This document shows positions 12,996-64,000 of a stretch of 64,000 nt of DNA, in pieces. The notes beneath the pieces were generated by a model that saw nothing but the letters and a program-made list of their open reading frames with translations, searched no databases and had not been told where the DNA came from. Source of the DNA: Streptomyces coeruleorubidus (GTDB lineage: Bacteria; Actinomycetota; Actinomycetes; Streptomycetales; Streptomycetaceae); the NCBI RefSeq assembly GCF_028885415.1, contig NZ_CP118527.1:2170001-2234000 (forward strand), given 5' to 3'. Made by a program: the position numbers and the translations under genes. Each line of letters starts with the position of its first letter. The first letter of the stretch is position 1.

Positions 12996-13162
12996 GGGTG
13001 CCTCCGCTCTTCGAATGGTCCGTGGCCCGCGTCTCGCGGTCACATCTCGAAGTTACGGAATCAGCGGCCGCCAACCCATCCGGTGATCCACCCACTCGAC
13101 CCTGAGCCTCGCCCCCTAGGGGACAGGGGGGCTAACCCCACCATGGGCCGGGCGAGGGCCGG

Positions 13163-13279
13163 TCATGGCGAGGCGATGGTCGCGATGACGGCGATGACGA
13201 TGAAGATCGCGAAGAAGGCGCCGAACACGAGCAGCATCTTCTTCTGACCGTGCTGGGGATTCGGGTCGAGCACTGGCAT
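13163..13279 (-). CDS. SGM_5486-family transporter-associated micropeptide
   Basis: 38-residue protein: a short polar start (MPVLDPNPQHGQKK) followed by one transmembrane helix (MLLVFGAFFAIFIVIAVIATI). In Streptomyces a tiny protein of this form is named after its constant position next to a CynX/NimT-type MFS transporter, which is the case here (transporter ends 65 bases upstream on the same strand). It may be a small subunit or stabiliser of the transporter; this is inferred from position. Confidence 0.75.
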   Translation of the reverse strand: MPVLDPNPQHGQKKMLLVFGAFFAIFIVIAVIATIASP

Positions 13280-13344
13280 GGGGCAAGTCTCGCACCCGCC
13301 CCGGGCGCCTGACGCCCGGGGGCCCCAAGCCCCCGGGGCCGGGC

Positions 13345-14880
13345 TCAGCGGGCCGCCTCGTCCTCCACCGTGCGGTCCCGGCCCGCCAGGAATCCGACCG
13401 CCATCTGCGGGATCATCAGGGCGCTCATCAGCGCGATCGGCAGGCCCCAGCCGCCGCTGTGCTGGTAGAGGACGCCCACCAGGAGCGGACCCGGGATGGA
13501 GATCAGGTAACCGGTACTCTGTGCGAACGCCGACAGCTGGGCCACGCCCGGGCCGGTCCTGGCCCGCATGCCGACCATGGTGAGGGCGAGCGGGAAGGCA
13601 CAGTTGGCGACGCCGAGCAGCACGGCCCAGGCCCAGGCGCCGGCGGCCGGCGCGAGGTACAGCCCGGCGTAGCCGGCGAGGCCGCAGACGCCCAGGGCGA
13701 GCACGATCGGGCCCTGCTGCGGCAGCCGCGTGGCCAGACGCGGTATGACGAAGGCCAGGGGCACGCCCATCACCATGGTGACCGCGAGCAGCAGCCCCGC
13801 GGTGCCGGCGGGCACACCCGCGTCCCGGAAGATCTGCGCCATCCAGCCCATGGTGATGTAGGCGGCGGTGGCCTGGAGCCCGAAGAAGACGGCCAGGGCC
13901 CAGGCGGTACGGCTCCCGGTGATCCGTAGCCGCGGAGCCTCCCCGGGGGCGGATCCGGTGGGAGCCGAGTCCGGCGTCTCCCGATCCCGCGCCGACCGGT
14001 CGCCGTCGCCCTCCGGGCCCACGGCCCGCTTCCCGGGCCCGGCCGCGACTCCGGACCGCTCCCCCAGCCCGGTATCCGTGCCCGCGGTCCGCTCCTCCGC
14101 CCCGGTCTCCGTCCTCCACGTTCGCTCTCCCGGCCCGGTCTCCTCGCCCCGGCTCAGCTCCCCCGACCCGGCCGCGACTCCGGTCCGTCCCCCTGGCCCG
14201 GACGCCGCCGTACCCGTCGCACGGCCCCGTACGAACGGCAGCCACGGCAGGACCGCCGCCACGGCCAGCCCGGACCACAGGGCCAGGCCCGACTGCCAGC
14301 TGCCGCCCAGGGCGTCGGTCAGGGGCACCGTGACCGCCGCGGCGAGGGCGGTGCCCAGGGCGAGTGCCATGGAGTACAGGCCGGTCATGGAGCCGACGCG
14401 GTCGGGGAACCAGTGCTTGACGATGACCGGCATCAGGACGTTGCTGACCGCGATGCCCATGAGGGCGAGGGCGGTGGCGGCCAGGAAGCCGGCCGTGCCG
14501 CCGGCGTACGGCCGGATCGCCAGGCCGGCGGCGATGGCGGCCATGCCGGCGCACACCACGGCGCCGGCTCCGAAGCGGCGGGCGAGCCGCGGGGCCATGA
14601 CGCCGAAGACGGCGAAACACAGCGGCGGCACGGAGGTGAGCAGCCCGGCCACGCTGCCGCTCATGCCGAGCCCGTCGCGGACCTCCTCCAGGAGGGCGCC
14701 GAGGCTGGTGATGGCGGGACGGAGGTTCAGCGCGGACAGCACGATGCCGAGGACGAGCAACCGCGTCGTCCACGCGCGCGTGGACGTACCGCCGGGTTCC
14801 CGGGCCTCGTGCGCGGCCGAGCTGCGTACGGTCGGGGGCGTCATCGTCCGGGTTTCCTCGCTAGCCATGGGGCCCATCAT
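13345..14880 (-). CDS. CynX/NimT-type MFS transporter
   Basis: 511 residues with about 12 membrane segments in two halves. The N-terminal part has LNLRPAITSLGALLEEVRDGLG, typical of the CynX/NimT (cyanate/2-nitroimidazole) branch. The central cytoplasmic loop is unusually long (about 100 residues) and consists of Gly/Glu/Arg/Thr-rich repeats of about 11 residues (GPGERTWRTET, GAEERTAGTDT, GLGERSGVAA). The substrate is unknown. It is divergent from a FadR-type regulator with a perfect palindrome just upstream of the start, and is followed by the 38-residue micropeptide. Likely repressed by that regulator. Confidence 0.88.
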   Translation of the reverse strand: MMGPMASEETRTMTPPTVRSSAAHEAREPGGTSTRAWTTRLLVLGIVLSALNLRPAITSLGALLEEVRDGLGMSGSVAGLLTSVPPLCFAVFGVMAPRLARRFGAGAVVCAGMAAIAAGLAIRPYAGGTAGFLAATALALMGIAVSNVLMPVIVKHWFPDRVGSMTGLYSMALALGTALAAAVTVPLTDALGGSWQSGLALWSGLAVAAVLPWLPFVRGRATGTAASGPGGRTGVAAGSGELSRGEETGPGERTWRTETGAEERTAGTDTGLGERSGVAAGPGKRAVGPEGDGDRSARDRETPDSAPTGSAPGEAPRLRITGSRTAWALAVFFGLQATAAYITMGWMAQIFRDAGVPAGTAGLLLAVTMVMGVPLAFVIPRLATRLPQQGPIVLALGVCGLAGYAGLYLAPAAGAWAWAVLLGVANCAFPLALTMVGMRARTGPGVAQLSAFAQSTGYLISIPGPLLVGVLYQHSGGWGLPIALMSALMIPQMAVGFLAGRDRTVEDEAAR

Positions 14881-57237: not shown

Positions 57238-58488
<1,251 letters not shown>

Positions 58489-58522: not shown

Positions 58523-58744
58523 ATGAAGATCGACTGGGCGGCCCTCGGCTCCGTCTTCGGCGTCAGCCTCGTGGTCACCGTGGCCCTCGTGGGCCTGTTC
58601 ACCCTCGGCATCACCGGTCTGTCCCGCCGCGAGCGGGCGGTGGCCGCGGGCGGGTCCGCGGGGCTTGCCGTGACGGGCGCGTACGCGTGCTTCGCGGCGT
58701 GTGCGGCGGCCGTTGGGTACGGGATCTATCTGATCGTGGCCTGA
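58523..58744 (+). CDS. Small membrane protein downstream of the phosphate transporter
   Basis: 73 residues, two helices (WAALGSVFGVSLVVTVALVGLFTLGI and AVAAGGSAGLAVTGAYACFAACAAAVGYGIYLIVA, in pieces). ATG at 58523, with AAGGAGA about 9 bases upstream. Second gene of the phosphate operon; may assist the transporter, but no family is recognised. Confidence 0.75.
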   Translation: MKIDWAALGSVFGVSLVVTVALVGLFTLGITGLSRRERAVAAGGSAGLAVTGAYACFAACAAAVGYGIYLIVA

Positions 58745-58818: not shown

Positions 58819-61800
58819 TCAGGAGCACGGCGAGCCGGTGTCCGCGCCGGCGTCGGTGAGGATGCGCTGCTCCGCCGGAGTGTAGGGGGCGGACCAGTTG
58901 CGGCAGAGGGCTTTGATCCAGGCTTCGGGGGCCAGGGGGATGCGTACGACGTCGTTGGCCTGTTCCACGGTCATGTGGTCGGAGGTGAGACGGATGTCGG
59001 GGGCGGCGGCATAACCGGGGACGTCGACGTACGGCTCGTCCGTGTCTTCCGCTCGCCAGACTTTCAAGGGGCTCTCGTCGGTCACCAGCGTTCCGTCGTC
59101 GGCCAGGGACTTCACGGAGATCTCGCCGTCGCTCTCGACGGTCCGTCCCATGGGCTCACCATCGGCCACCTTCCGGCGGACGACCGTTCTGGCGTCGCTC
59201 GGCGTCGCGATAAGAGAGCCGTTGGGGCTGAAGGCCAGCAGCTCCTCCTCGTGTCCAGAGCCCATGGTGAAGTCTCCGATCCGCCGCTTCTCCCCCGTGT
59301 CGACGTTCCAGAGGAAGACCCTTCCGTCGCTGTCCGCAACAGCCACCTCCGTTCGCCCGGGGCGCACTCCGAAGCCCATGCAGCTCCCGTTGCCACACGG
59401 GCGGGCCGCGATGGCCCGCTCCTCTCCCGACTCGACGTCGAAGACGATCAGCCGCTCCGCCGTGAGCACCACTGCCTCGCTGCCGTACAGGGGAGCGGCG
59501 AACACGACCGGGCTGGAGAACTTCTCGGTGAACTCGGCGGCGCCCCGAGCCGCCTCGCGTACCGACAGCCGTTCGTGCCCGCTGCTCCAGAGGACGAGGC
59601 GGCGGCTGTCCGCGGTGAAGAACAAGTTCGGTTCGACCACCCCCGTTCCCGTCCACTCATCGAGCACGAGGGGTTTCGCTGCCATCTCCTGGCCCCGGCG
59701 CGCCAGGATCAGCCACGGTTGGGGCACTCCGCCCAGGGTCTCCGGGCTGTCCAGCCGGGCGCGGCGGACTCCGTCGGCGCTTCTCGCATACGTTTCATCG
59801 CTTCCCCAGCCGCCTGCCATGGAGGGGAGGGGGAAGCGACTGTCCTCGGTCGTCCGCAGAACCAGCAGATCCGATCCCTGGGGCCGGAGGATGTACGGAG
59901 TCCCTTCCTTCCTGGTGATGACGGCGGCGGGCTGTACCGCCGCCGTAGCGAGGAGCCCGGCCGGCGCGCGGTAGCGCCTACCTGTCAGCAGCTCAGTCGC
60001 CCAGACCACGGCGTTGCCGTCGGAACCGCCGTGGTCCAGCGCGTAGCGCCCGGTGCTGTCGACGCCTTCCTGCCTGAATATCGGAACGGTAGGTGGGATG
60101 GTGCCGGAACCTGTGAGGGACTCCAGCGCGTAGCGCCCGTGCTTCCGGTCGACCATGACGCCGGAGCCACGTCCGACGAGGCCTGCGACCTTCCGGAGCG
60201 TGCGGAGTTCCTTCCCACTCGCCAGCCTTCGGACGGTGGCGACACCGGGGCCCTCCTCCCCTCCTGCCGTCATGTAGACGGCGTCCGTGCCGTCTCCGAC
60301 CAGTGCGGCGTCCACCGGAGCCGCGCCGTGACGGGCCACGGTGACCGGCTGGCCCGTATCGCTCTGCCAGGCCTCGACCGACCAGTCGCGCCGGTCCGTC
60401 TCCTCCGTGCCGTCGCCGTAGGCGGCCAGCCTCAGCAGGCGCTCGCCGCCGTCCGAGAAGTCGAGCGCGGCCGTAGGAGGCAGGGGTTCGGCGTCCAGCG
60501 CCGGCCTGGTCCACAGATGTTCTCGCCGTGGCAGATCGTGGACCTGTACCGAGCCGTCGTCCCAGGCCACGGCCAGCAGCCGCCCGTCGTCGCTGAGTTC
60601 GGCCATGGACACGACGCCGTGCGGTCGTCCGGGCACCTTCCAGGATCGTGCCCTGCCCTCAGGGATCCCCGTCCACACCCGGACGAACGAGGTGTTCCCC
60701 CTCCCCGTGGACACGGTCACCACGGTCGAGCCGTCCGCGGTCGTGTCGAGGCTCTGGATCTGTTCGTCCCTCGGACCCGCGACTCCGGCGACCACGGACG
60801 AACCCCGCAAGTAGGCCTCCAGCAACGCCTGCCGGGCCTCCCTGCCCCGTGCGTTGTACCAGGCGGCCATGGCCATCCGTACGGACGCCACGGGGTGGGT
60901 CCCGGCGAGGCGGCCGGCCTCCTCCGCCAGCGTGCGCGACGCGATCGTCCGCCCCCGGGTCTCCAGCGCGTTCCCCCTGCGCCACGACTCCACCGCCAGT
61001 CCTCCCGCGAGCAGGGCCAGAACGACGAGTACGGAGGCCGCCAACCGCCACCGGTGCAGCGCTCGTTGCTGATGGCGGCGGCTCAGGTCGACGTAGGCAC
61101 GCTCGGACGGTGTGATGTCCTCCCCGTGCCTCGGGTCCGCCAACTGCTCCAGTGACGTCGCCAGCATCGTGCCGCGCAGGAGCGCGCCGGTCTCCTCCCC
61201 CGTGGCCTTCCAGTCGTCCATGGCCTGGCGGAGGCGTTCCTGCCACTGGCGGAAGTCGCGGGAGTCCTCCAGCCAGGCGCGCAGACGGGGCCAGGCGCGT
61301 ACCAGTTCCTCGTGGGCCAGGTCGACCAGCGGCTCGCCGTCCGGGCCGTGGGTGATGCGGACGAAGCGGGTGCGGGTGGCCAGGGCTTCCGCGACGGAGC
61401 GGATCTCCGACGGCAGATGGGTCAGGCGGGCCGGCTTGCGGGTGAAGCCGCCGCTGTCGTCCGGGCGGGCCAGTTGGACGAAGAGGCGGCGGACCGGGGC
61501 CTCGCCGTGTTCCGCGATGACCTCGCCGACGCGCTTCTCGGCGTGGGTGGACAGGGCACCGCTCACTCCGCCGAGGACCTCGTAGCCGGTGTGGGTCAGA
61601 CGTACGCCGCCCTGGAGGGACCAGAGTTCGGTGAGGGCGAACTCGACCATCGGCAGGTGGCCGGGCTCGTCCTGGGCGTCGTCGACGATGCGCTGGGCGA
61701 GGCCGGGGTCGAGGGTGAGGCCGGGTACGCGGGAGGCCGGACCCTCGACCGCGCGCAGCAGGCCCGCACGGCCCAGCGGTGCGACGACCTGGGCGCAGTC

Positions 61801-63072
61801 GCTGAGGACGTGGGCGGTGGCGGGTTCCGCGAGGTCGTCGAGGCAGGCGGAGCGCAGGGTCGCGAGGACGCGCAGCCGTTTGTCCTCGGCGGGGACCGAG
61901 GAGAGGGCGATCAGTAGGGCCAGCAGGGAACGGGCGGTGGCCGGTTCGCCGGCCACGATCTCCTCCAGCTGGTTGAGGAAGAAGACGTGGCCGCGTGGGC
62001 CGCAGTGGTGCAGCAGGCGCAGGCCGAGTGCGGGGGCCGCCCCGGTGTCGAGCAGGTCCGCGAGTTCCTGGGCGGTGCGCTCCTGGATGGCGACACCCTG
62101 GTCCGGTTCCAGCAGCGGCGCCAGTGCTCGCGCCAGGGTCAGTGCGGCGGGTGTGCCGGGCAGCGGGCGGATCTCCGAGACCGTGTGGCCGTCGGCGCGC
62201 AGGCGTGGGAGCGCCCCGGCACGCACGAGTGACGTCTTGCCGCTGCCGGACGGGCCGACCACCGGCACGACGACGTGCCGGTCCACCGCCTCCAGCAGTC
62301 GTTCCGTCTCCTTCTCCCGGCCGAAGAAGTGCTCGGCGTCCTCCTCCCGGAAGGCGTCGAGGCCTCGGTAGGGGCAGCGGCGCAGGCCCGGCTGGAGGTC
62401 CAGCAGCGTTGCCGCGGGGATCAGGTACGAGGTGGCCGCCGTACGGCCGCGGTCGGTCGCGACCGTCATGCCGATCACGGCACCGAGTTCCTCGTCCCAG
62501 ACGGGGGCTCCGCTGCACCCCGGGGAGATGTGGTGCGCGGTGCCGTCCGCCTCCATGGAGATCCAGCCCTGTCCGACGGCGCCGAGCAGCCGCCCGCCGA
62601 TCCAGGCGCCGTGTTCGGCCGAGGCCGGGAAGGCCAGGATGCGGAAGCGGTGCTCCCAGACGTCGCCGGCGCCTGCCAGGGGGACGGGAGGCGTGTCCGC
62701 GACGGCGGCGTGTTCGGGCAGCCGCAGCAGTGCGATGTCGCCCGTTCCGTCGGCGGCCAGCGGCAGCCAGGCCGACACCGAGGTCTCGAAGGCGGCGCTG
62801 CCCCGGTGGAGCGGGAACTCGACGGTCACGGGGCTCGTCGGCGGGGATTCGGCCCGTGCGTCGGTGCGCAGGGCCTGCGCGACGACATGGGCGCAGGTGG
62901 CCACCGTGCCGGGGGCGAGCAGGAATCCGGAGCCGACGGGAGCGCCGTCGGCGGACCGTACCCGGACCACCGCGGAGCCGAGCCCCTCCGGGCACCGTGC
63001 GCCGGTCACCTCGGCGGCCCCGGGCGGCGGCCGGTGACGTCCACCGGCACTCAACTGGGTGTCGTAGCGCAC
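58819..63072 (-). CDS. Trypsin-like protease / nSTAND ATPase / WD40 fusion protein
   Basis: 1417 residues. An S1 protease domain (about 25-240) has H62 (ATCAHVV), D112 (GDIALLRL) and S187 (GCSGAP), a complete triad. An nSTAND1-type ATPase follows: RGLDAFREEDAEHFFGREKE, P-loop GPSGSGKTSLVRAG at about 273. The Walker B region HVFFLNQLEEIV has Asn where Asp is normal (DQFEE), so ATP use may be altered. A helical region ends in one transmembrane helix (about 675-695, LAASVLVVLALLAGGLAVESW). The C-terminal 650 residues are WD40-type repeats. The GTG at 63070-63072 has AAGGACGGG 4 bases upstream. STAND proteins with sensor repeats and effector domains act in bacterial conflict or signalling; here the effector would be the protease. 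It stands alone. Confidence 0.88.
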   Translation of the reverse strand: MRYDTQLSAGGRHRPPPGAAEVTGARCPEGLGSAVVRVRSADGAPVGSGFLLAPGTVATCAHVVAQALRTDARAESPPTSPVTVEFPLHRGSAAFETSVSAWLPLAADGTGDIALLRLPEHAAVADTPPVPLAGAGDVWEHRFRILAFPASAEHGAWIGGRLLGAVGQGWISMEADGTAHHISPGCSGAPVWDEELGAVIGMTVATDRGRTAATSYLIPAATLLDLQPGLRRCPYRGLDAFREEDAEHFFGREKETERLLEAVDRHVVVPVVGPSGSGKTSLVRAGALPRLRADGHTVSEIRPLPGTPAALTLARALAPLLEPDQGVAIQERTAQELADLLDTGAAPALGLRLLHHCGPRGHVFFLNQLEEIVAGEPATARSLLALLIALSSVPAEDKRLRVLATLRSACLDDLAEPATAHVLSDCAQVVAPLGRAGLLRAVEGPASRVPGLTLDPGLAQRIVDDAQDEPGHLPMVEFALTELWSLQGGVRLTHTGYEVLGGVSGALSTHAEKRVGEVIAEHGEAPVRRLFVQLARPDDSGGFTRKPARLTHLPSEIRSVAEALATRTRFVRITHGPDGEPLVDLAHEELVRAWPRLRAWLEDSRDFRQWQERLRQAMDDWKATGEETGALLRGTMLATSLEQLADPRHGEDITPSERAYVDLSRRHQQRALHRWRLAASVLVVLALLAGGLAVESWRRGNALETRGRTIASRTLAEEAGRLAGTHPVASVRMAMAAWYNARGREARQALLEAYLRGSSVVAGVAGPRDEQIQSLDTTADGSTVVTVSTGRGNTSFVRVWTGIPEGRARSWKVPGRPHGVVSMAELSDDGRLLAVAWDDGSVQVHDLPRREHLWTRPALDAEPLPPTAALDFSDGGERLLRLAAYGDGTEETDRRDWSVEAWQSDTGQPVTVARHGAAPVDAALVGDGTDAVYMTAGGEEGPGVATVRRLASGKELRTLRKVAGLVGRGSGVMVDRKHGRYALESLTGSGTIPPTVPIFRQEGVDSTGRYALDHGGSDGNAVVWATELLTGRRYRAPAGLLATAAVQPAAVITRKEGTPYILRPQGSDLLVLRTTEDSRFPLPSMAGGWGSDETYARSADGVRRARLDSPETLGGVPQPWLILARRGQEMAAKPLVLDEWTGTGVVEPNLFFTADSRRLVLWSSGHERLSVREAARGAAEFTEKFSSPVVFAAPLYGSEAVVLTAERLIVFDVESGEERAIAARPCGNGSCMGFGVRPGRTEVAVADSDGRVFLWNVDTGEKRRIGDFTMGSGHEEELLAFSPNGSLIATPSDARTVVRRKVADGEPMGRTVESDGEISVKSLADDGTLVTDESPLKVWRAEDTDEPYVDVPGYAAAPDIRLTSDHMTVEQANDVVRIPLAPEAWIKALCRNWSAPYTPAEQRILTDAGADTGSPCS

Positions 63073-63269
63073 TGGTCCCGTCCTTTCCGCAGGCCTGCAT
63101 CCCGTGCGAGGTATTGGAGGGTGTGCGCCGGGCCCCCGCAAGCGGGTCGCCGGAACGTGCCCCGCACAGGGGAATTCGCCCCGACCCGTCCCACGGGCAC
63201 GGGGCTCCGTGCTAGCGGTGTGGGCTTCTCCACACTCTCCCCTCGCAGGTCAACGGCAAGTTGACGGCT

Positions 63270-63405
63270 GTTCCCGGCCGTGGTGGACTGCCGGGGCCAG
63301 TACGGCGGCAGGAGAGGAAGCCGGTGGAAGTCCGGCGCGGTCCCGCCACTGTCACCGGGGTAGCGATCCCCGGGAGCCAGGAACTCTCACCGCCGGTCCA
63401 GTCGA
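63270..63405 (+). ncRNA. Cobalamin (B12) riboswitch
   Basis: Conserved core is readable: GAGAGGAAGCCGGTGGAAGT (63312-63331), CCGGCGCGGTCCCGCCACTG with the B12 box GCCACTG at 63345-63351, then CCGGGAGCCAGGAACTC (63370-63386). Position upstream of a cobD gene fits B12-repressed cobalamin synthesis. Exact ends are approximate. The 434-base gap 63073-63506 otherwise holds only promoter sequence and the leader ORF described next. Confidence 0.88.
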
Positions 63406-63506: not shown

Positions 63507-64000
63507 ATGGGTGCCGGCCGCGTCTTCGCGTACGGCGCCGCCGCCGGTCTGATCGGTGACCTGCTGCTCGGCGATCCTCGCCGAGGGCATCCGGTCGCCG
63601 TGTTCGGGCGGGCCGCGGGGGCCGTGGAACGGGTGTTGTGGCGGGACCACCGGGGGTGGGGCGCGCTGCACGCCGTGGTGTGTGCGGGAGGGGCCGTCGC
63701 GCTCGGGGGCGCCGCCGCGCGCGCCGTGCGGGACTCCGCCGTCGCGTCGGTCGTTCTGACCGGTGCTGCCACCTGGGCCGTGGTCGGGGGGACTTCGCTC
63801 GCGCGGGAGGCGCGGGCCGTCGGGCGTGCCCTGGAGGCGGGGGACGTCGAGGGGGCCCGGGAGCGGCTGCCGCATCTGTGCGGGCGGGATCCGCAGGCAC
63901 TCGACGCCGACGGGATCGCCCGGGCCGTGGTCGAGTCCGTCGCCGAGAACACCTCCGACGCGGTCGTGGGGGCGCTCGTGTGGGGGGCCGTCGGTGGTGT
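63507..64000 (+). CDS. cobD: Adenosylcobinamide-phosphate synthase, CobD/CbiB (partial)
   Basis: The gene starts at the ATG at 63507 and runs off the window; about 164 codons are visible and contain no stop. Family features: LIGDLLLGDPRRGHPVAVFGR at the N-terminus (in pieces: GDPRRGHPVAVFG) and VVESVAENTSDAVVGALVWGAVGG (pieces), the CbiB signature SVAENTSD. It attaches the aminopropanol phosphate arm during cobalamin synthesis, in the membrane. Preceded by a B12 riboswitch and a leader ORF. Further cobalamin genes are expected beyond the window edge. Confidence 0.93.
   Translation, partial: MGAGRVFAYGAAAGLIGDLLLGDPRRGHPVAVFGRAAGAVERVLWRDHRGWGALHAVVCAGGAVALGGAAARAVRDSAVASVVLTGAATWAVVGGTSLAREARAVGRALEAGDVEGARERLPHLCGRDPQALDADGIARAVVESVAENTSDAVVGALVWGAVGG

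Follow-up and report, generated by a model that had tools for sequence, protein, structure and literature searches.

Near one end of a 64,000-nucleotide stretch of the Streptomyces coeruleorubidus genome (contig NZ_CP118527.1, positions 2,170,001 to 2,234,000; hereafter the window) lies a gene that joins a serine protease, an nSTAND1 nucleoside triphosphatase (NTPase), a membrane helix and a predicted double β-propeller in one chain. It is a real gene, one unbroken minus-strand frame at 58819–63072, and stands alone between pit on one side and cobD, cobQ and cobN on the other (Table 1); the names Pit, CobD (CbiB-like), CobQ and CobN are our presumption from the sequences. This architecture is common in Streptomyces: of 7993 proteins scored in a homologue search, 612 reached E ≤ 0.001, and the best 120 were listed. 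Alignment counts refer to 120 rows, the window protein plus 119 listed homologues.

The N-terminal domain has both the fold and the catalytic His-Asp-Ser of a trypsin-like (S1/HtrA) protease. Trypsin_2 matches residues 47–202 (Pfam, E 4.3e-13), structure comparison places HtrA/DegS stress proteases as the nearest fold, and the triad is unchanged wherever a row has the residue (H62 116/116, D112 117/117, S187 118/118). VIA-align rows for the model of this half mostly cover the protease (residues 18–231) and barely test the NTPase fold. The NTPase itself matches PF20703 at E 5.9e-85 (286.6 bits against a cut-off of 27.1) over profile positions 1–377 of 379, and its Walker A lysine, K279, is invariant in all 118 readable rows. 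The name nSTAND1 comes from Kaur et al. 2021 (PMC8195603), cited here, like the other papers below, from part of its text. The residue preceding the catalytic serine, C186 (62515–62517), is Cys (GCSG) in 22/120 rows, all from the closest clade, and Phe (89) or Tyr (7) in all other rows with a residue.

Walker B reads FFLNQLEE in the window, so that the window protein and its clade lack the Asp of the nSTAND1 motif DQxEE (Asn in 22/119 readable rows). Position 367 is Asp in 97 rows, Asn in 22 and a gap in one; the Asn set consists of the window protein and all of its 22 closest homologues but one, P0013, which has Asp. A preliminary description, made from the sequence alone, had noted NQLEE in place of DQFEE and allowed for a local sequence error, which the clade-wide occurrence of Asn excludes. 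The Asn is a variant inside a family whose profile the protein matches fully, and its distribution in the alignment makes it a clade marker. Because Q368, E370 and E371 are invariant (120/120 rows), as is K279, nucleotide binding and the catalytic glutamate are probably kept.

A strong hydrophobic helix follows the NTPase; such a peak occurs once in 100/120 proteins and twice in 20/120, the second peak being mostly weak and within the first 40 residues. In all 118 proteins with a detected helix the preceding segment is more positively charged than the following one. The cysteine count is even after the helix in 94 of these 118 and before it in 58, and C1390 and C1416, which may form a disulfide, are present in 118/120 and 117/120. 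Combined, the charge asymmetry, the cysteine parity and the conserved Cys pair lead us to favour a topology with the protease inside and the propeller outside, with disulfides. The model of the C-terminal half is β-rich, with 48 strands and a predicted local distance difference test (pLDDT) score of 91.8, and propeller folds match it, with Apaf-1 among the Foldseek matches; the VIA-align rows mostly cover model residues 100–420, leaving the second propeller less tested. Single WD40 repeats stayed below the Pfam cut-off (PF00400, 15.7 bits against 27), and no tandem repeat array reached a score of 40 in 58819–61095. The preliminary description was thus right about the full S1 triad, the nSTAND1-type P-loop ATPase and the single membrane helix. 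Its WD40-type repeats fell short as individual Pfam matches and stood as a confident β-rich model with propeller folds, and its placement of sensor and protease on opposite sides of the membrane is supported, as a prediction, by charge and cysteine parity.

The pit–cobD site and the Trypco1 partner

The gene is inserted at the pit–cobD site. Among the compared loci, the window's nearest relative by Pit identity (96%) and by synonymous divergence of the flanks (dS 0.12) is G123, in which the site is empty, and both sides of the insertion align to that site (L137) at 91% and 97%. A relative at E ≤ 1e-60 occurs anywhere in the genome in 33/150 Streptomyces genomes. The pit–cobD distance, measurable in 138 of the 150, is below 1.3 kb (median 672 bp) in 125 and at least 2.8 kb in 13; a universal site with housekeeping partners is rejected, since 125/138 genomes have only a short gap. 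The preliminary description had set the gene alone between a phosphate operon and cobalamin genes, at an exchange-prone boundary. The gene is indeed solitary, variably present and absent from most relatives, pit is one gene rather than an operon, and presence in all relatives with conserved partners, which would have spoken for another role, is not seen.

The protein family fills four of the 13 long gaps: three carry Asn (G000, G001, G103) and the fourth, G021, holds a divergent, Asp-bearing relative together with a Trypco1 gene. Three further gaps hold a caspase-transmembrane-vWA protein and a solute-binding-protein gene (G063, G085 and G136), and the caspase proteins (L129, L128 and L130, respectively) are mutually 56–73% identical. 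In G085 and G136 the caspase gene has a gene for a small one-helix protein upstream of it, and the two small proteins are 50% identical; the upstream sequence in G063 shows a similar beginning, the only part read. Between EACC1 and the G085 small protein the match has E 0.011, below the EACC1 cut-off. The gap in G046 spans 11.6 kb. A Pfam scan took in four of the five gaps of ~3 kb, G089 (L135) being left out; an HTH_31-DUF5753 regulator is inserted in these four (L132 in G107, L133 in G067, L134 in G039 and L136 in G013), and L132 and L136 have a second open reading frame of ~300 codons with no Pfam match. A scan of genome contigs yielded 24 loci, seven of them with an N-type (Asn-bearing) gene at pit–cobD, in S. 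tuirus, S. olindensis, S. sp. HD, S. sp. cf386, S. cyaneus, S. curacoi and a metagenome-assembled genome. Two N-type relatives, L047 and L048 (44% identical), are located away from this site. A literature search, mostly at the level of abstracts, returned no paper describing the pit–cobD gap or an exchange of propellers among bacterial STAND proteases.

Many relatives have a Trypco1 neighbour. Of 28 protease-bearing loci from a genus search (L036, with no protease match, omitted), 17 have Trypco1 immediately upstream in the same orientation and three have it downstream, by weak matches (E 1.4e-07 to 1.1e-04); it was not found at eight, some of which may be false negatives, as the tblastn search used one query and flanks of ~1.5 kb for most loci. 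By the same tblastn search it was found at none of nine N-type pit–cobD loci (window, L041–L046, L049, L117), so the window protease gene lacks the neighbour that defines a Trypco1–trypsin pair. In the window's own genome Trypco1 occurs only at 3094732 and 5064868. It does adjoin both N-type relatives L047 and L048 (in L048 directly upstream, E 5.6e-27). As Asn and Trypco1 occur together in these two, the simplest history would place the origin of Asn before a loss of Trypco1 in the pit–cobD lineage.

Exchange of the two halves of the gene

Divergence is uneven along the gene. Between the window and S. olindensis, dS is 0.15–0.28 in flanking genes, 0.31 in the protease, 0.47 in the NTPase and 0.94 in the propeller (nonsynonymous divergence, dN, 0.56). 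In the sharpest case G103 and S. cyaneus, compared by nucleotide in 50-codon windows, are 95–100% identical at residues 21–820, 67–87% at 821–1370 and 98% at 1371–1417, with dS of 0.13 in the flank, 0.04 in the N-terminal half (N-half) and 0.34 in the propeller half, and the middle part of the G103 gene is 83–96% identical to S. sp. HD (L043) and cf386 (L044). Maximum chi-square breakpoints fall at ~849 and ~1371 and were reached by 0/1000 permutations. Approximately unbiased tests reject a grouping of G103 with HD and cf386 on N-half data and of G103 with S. cyaneus on propeller data; the groups were picked after seeing pairwise distances, and the p-values are post hoc. L043 and L049 likewise differ by dS of 0.14 in the flank, 0.13 in the N-half and 0.38 in the propeller, with a breakpoint near 629.

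The propeller is not the only part exchanged. The N-half splits into two groups (L043, L044 and L049; L045, L046 and L117), and in all nine between-group pairs the N-half reassorts too; these comparisons make the gene a mosaic of two reassorting halves. In these pairs the N-halves are 79–81% identical (dN 0.11–0.13), and the propeller halves 63–68% in seven (dN 0.22–0.25) and 84–85% in the remaining two, which carry G103's borrowed propeller. N-half exchange therefore widens the exchange, and the propeller remains the most variable part in protein sequence. Among all 7140 pairs of the 120 proteins, N-halves are at least 85% identical in 109, with a median propeller identity of 62%. Ten pairs, which share members and are not independent, reach at least 95%; their propellers are below 70% in eight, one pair having 100% against 51%. 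P0033, P0036 and P0039 are 98–100% identical over residues 30–627, with propellers 49–69% identical. None of the 7140 homologue pairs shows the reverse, a propeller over 60% identical that exceeds the N-half by more than 3 points; G103 is a slight reverse case against L043 and L044 (N-half 80 and 81%, propeller 84 and 85%).

Other explanations of the propeller's divergence were considered. Positive selection averaged over the propeller finds no proof, dN/dS being 0.44–0.63 between the window and eight pit–cobD relatives; the S. tuirus gene (L041) has frame breaks, with its first ~100 residues misaligned in the pairwise halves comparison, so its values come from the window-versus-relatives comparison. 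Tandem-repeat instability is rejected, there being no arrays. Weaker codon bias (GC content at third codon positions of 0.85 against 0.91) was weighed as a reason for the high dS of the propeller, but it cannot account for breakpoints as sharp as those of G103 or for the closer match of that propeller to other species. These comparisons show a propeller exchanged between species by recombination and diverging much faster in protein than the protease and NTPase, and for both reasons specificity appears to be the part that changes.

Candidate function and alternative readings

On balance, we lean towards a membrane-anchored STAND-protease conflict receptor. The protein has the corresponding order of an N-terminal effector, a STAND switch and a C-terminal superstructure-forming sensor, and the preliminary description's STAND-type conflict reading gains from this architecture and from Trypco1 adjacency in relatives. 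The double propeller, predicted to lie outside the membrane and to be held by disulfides, with C1390 and C1416 the likeliest pair, would bind, at the cell surface, a ligand that is foreign or non-self. The signal would pass through the single helix, whereupon cytoplasmic nSTAND1 domains would bind nucleotide and oligomerise, gathering the fused HtrA-like proteases and switching them on; the active proteases could then cut cytoplasmic targets, with the hypha arrested or killed. The clade-wide Walker B Asn may slow nucleotide hydrolysis by the switch. The earlier suggestion that a protease is released is not supported, activation by oligomerisation being the usual STAND model.

Several points weigh against this receptor. 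Known STAND anti-phage proteins sense inside the cell, unlike the predicted outside propeller, and PADLOC matches are weak throughout (best 18 bits). A protease-bearing relative at 3.70 Mb in the window's own genome is also without Trypco1. The charge and parity counts come from related sequences and are not independent. N-half dS (0.50–0.63) exceeds that of the propeller (0.13–0.47) and flank (0.28–0.32) in 9/9 between-group pairs, and the propeller, for all its fast divergence, keeps a dN/dS below 1.

Among known systems, AVAST (Avs) type I has a STAND protein and a trypsin-like protease as separate genes with no known membrane helix; the window protein joins the two in one fused gene. Avs membership is rejected, as the PADLOC matches are too weak (Avs1b 14.0 bits only, E 0.0014, on the protease). 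Apaf-1 also has STAND followed by a double WD40 propeller, but it is soluble, recruits a caspase through its CARD and has no known fused protease, unlike the window protein with its fused protease and membrane helix. STAND, trypsin, Trypco1 and EACC1-caspase proteins of multicellular bacteria have been proposed as conflict systems (Kaur et al. 2020, PMC7159879). We place the protein among these because Trypco1 adjoins relatives and because its gap is common with EACC1-like/caspase modules. With the STAND-trypsin and Trypco1-trypsin systems in the available text of that paper it shares an N-terminal trypsin-like effector on a STAND NTPase, an origin in filamentous actinobacteria and Trypco1 beside many relatives. 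It differs in crossing the membrane with one helix, in propellers predicted outside, in an exchanged sensor cassette and in lacking a partner: the window gene is solitary, with no MoxR-vWA, NucA or EAD partner seen beside it. EACC1-caspase two-gene systems with a transmembrane helix and an extracellular PBP or vWA (System 4 in the same partial text, PMC7159879) resemble it in their N-terminal peptidase, membrane helix and variable C-terminal part, and similar systems occupy the same gap in three genomes; their peptidase is unrelated, and the caspase systems of the gap have no STAND domain among their Pfam matches. With 612 Streptomyces proteins and STAND-trypsin conflict proteins already proposed in the available text of PMC7159879, the preliminary description's candidate undescribed device is not supported; that account overlooked that the propeller is exchanged, that Trypco1 adjoins many relatives and that EACC1-like/caspase systems occupy the gap.

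The protein could instead be a housekeeping surface sensor of envelope stress, nutrients or a secreted signal, with a DegS-like protease acting on a regulator and a propeller that tracks species-specific ligands. The HtrA/DegS-like fold, the single-gene locus, the propeller dN/dS below 1 and the recombination of both halves, as in any often-exchanged gene, would suit such a sensor. We nevertheless consider it unlikely, given that the gene is missing from G123, nearest by flanks, that 125/138 genomes have only a short gap at the site, that the sensor is swapped between species and that Trypco1 lies by many relatives.

In evolutionary behaviour the nearest analogue would be the fungal HNWD/HET-E allorecognition family (PMC2873952), in which, by the available text, a C-terminal WD propeller carries specificity and diversifies by recombination behind an N-terminal effector and a STAND NTPase. 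Unlike the window protein, these proteins act in the cytoplasm of the fused cell, with a HET effector and a NACHT domain, and, in the same partial source (PMC2873952), their diversity comes from highly conserved tandem WD40 units. The window gene has a recombination-diversified propeller and no such tandem repeats were found in it. A bolder and rather unlikely proposal is that the protein serves allorecognition in bacteria. Its double-propeller ectodomain, polymorphic and recombining, would on contact discriminate between self and non-self among hyphae or the proteins they secrete, and the membrane STAND protease would kill or arrest the cell from inside; the receptor would be a prokaryotic HET-E counterpart with an outer sensor, at a site alternating with caspase-armed devices.

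A protein that is wholly cytoplasmic or peripheral and detects intruders within the cell, like Avs and NLR proteins, is quite unlikely. Characterised bacterial STAND sensors act in the cytoplasm and helix-free STAND-WD40 proteins exist, but the strong helix with a more positive N side in every one of the 118 homologues, the near-invariant Cys pair and the mostly even cysteine counts on the propeller side argue otherwise. Very improbable is a switch-dead scaffold that would bind nucleotide without hydrolysis or cycling and leave the protease to ligand-driven clustering alone, which Asn in 22/23 of the closest clade (window included) and the absence of detected Trypco1 at its nine pit–cobD loci would suit, since the invariant Q368, E370, E371 and K279 imply that binding and the catalytic Glu are probably kept and P0013 has Asp.

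If the conflict-receptor reading is true, Streptomyces would have a family of membrane immune or self/non-self receptors, with a swappable sensing ectodomain on a conserved protease–NTPase chassis. Natural recombinants such as G103 and S. cyaneus, near-identical except for the propeller, make ligand specificity testable, and the pit–cobD gap offers a fixed address for finding more one- and two-gene conflict devices.

Feature coordinates and minor observations

Table 1. Positions of the gene, its domains and its flanking features in the window.
Feature	Position	Strand	Remarks
Whole gene	58819..63072	-	single frame, 1417 codons; GTG 63009 as alternative start
Insertion, by comparison with the empty G123 site	58815..63214		gene and ~140 bp upstream
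HtrA-like S1 protease domain	62389..62985	-	residues 30–228
Catalytic triad	H62 62887–62889, D112 62737–62739, S187 62512–62514	-	from alignment
nSTAND1 NTPase	61192..62373	-	residues 234–627, Pfam PF20703
Walker A	62227..62262	-	residues 271–282, K279
Walker B region	61948..61989	-	residues 362–375; N367 at 61972–61974 in place of usual Asp
Predicted transmembrane helix	60988..61044	-	residues 677–695, from hydropathy
Predicted double β-propeller, predicted extracytoplasmic sensor	58936..60795	-	~residues 760–1379; from model, folds and cysteine parity
Counterpart of the G103/S. cyaneus exchange cassette	58960..60525	-	residues ~850–1371
Conserved C-terminal tail with C1390 and C1416	58825..58905	-	near-invariant Cys
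Pit-type phosphate transporter (presumed), left flank	57238..58488	+	single gene, not operon
Cobalamin riboswitch, cobD side	63267..63405	+	Rfam RF00174, 42.8 bits; outside insertion
cobD (CbiB-like, presumed), right flank	63507..64000	+	followed by cobQ and cobN beyond the window

The true start may be GTG 63009 rather than 63072, because many close homologues begin at the equivalent position and residues 1–25 have a pLDDT below 50 in the structure model. The cobalamin riboswitch precedes cobD, near the upstream end of the inserted gene. A 73-codon open reading frame for a small membrane protein (58523–58744, plus strand) follows pit, outside the insertion. The whole genome G000 has six strong nSTAND1 genes (268–426 bits) and a seventh barely above the cut-off, and at one locus, L121, the relative has a gene for an Arr-type rifampin ADP-ribosyltransferase (13057–13464) upstream of it.

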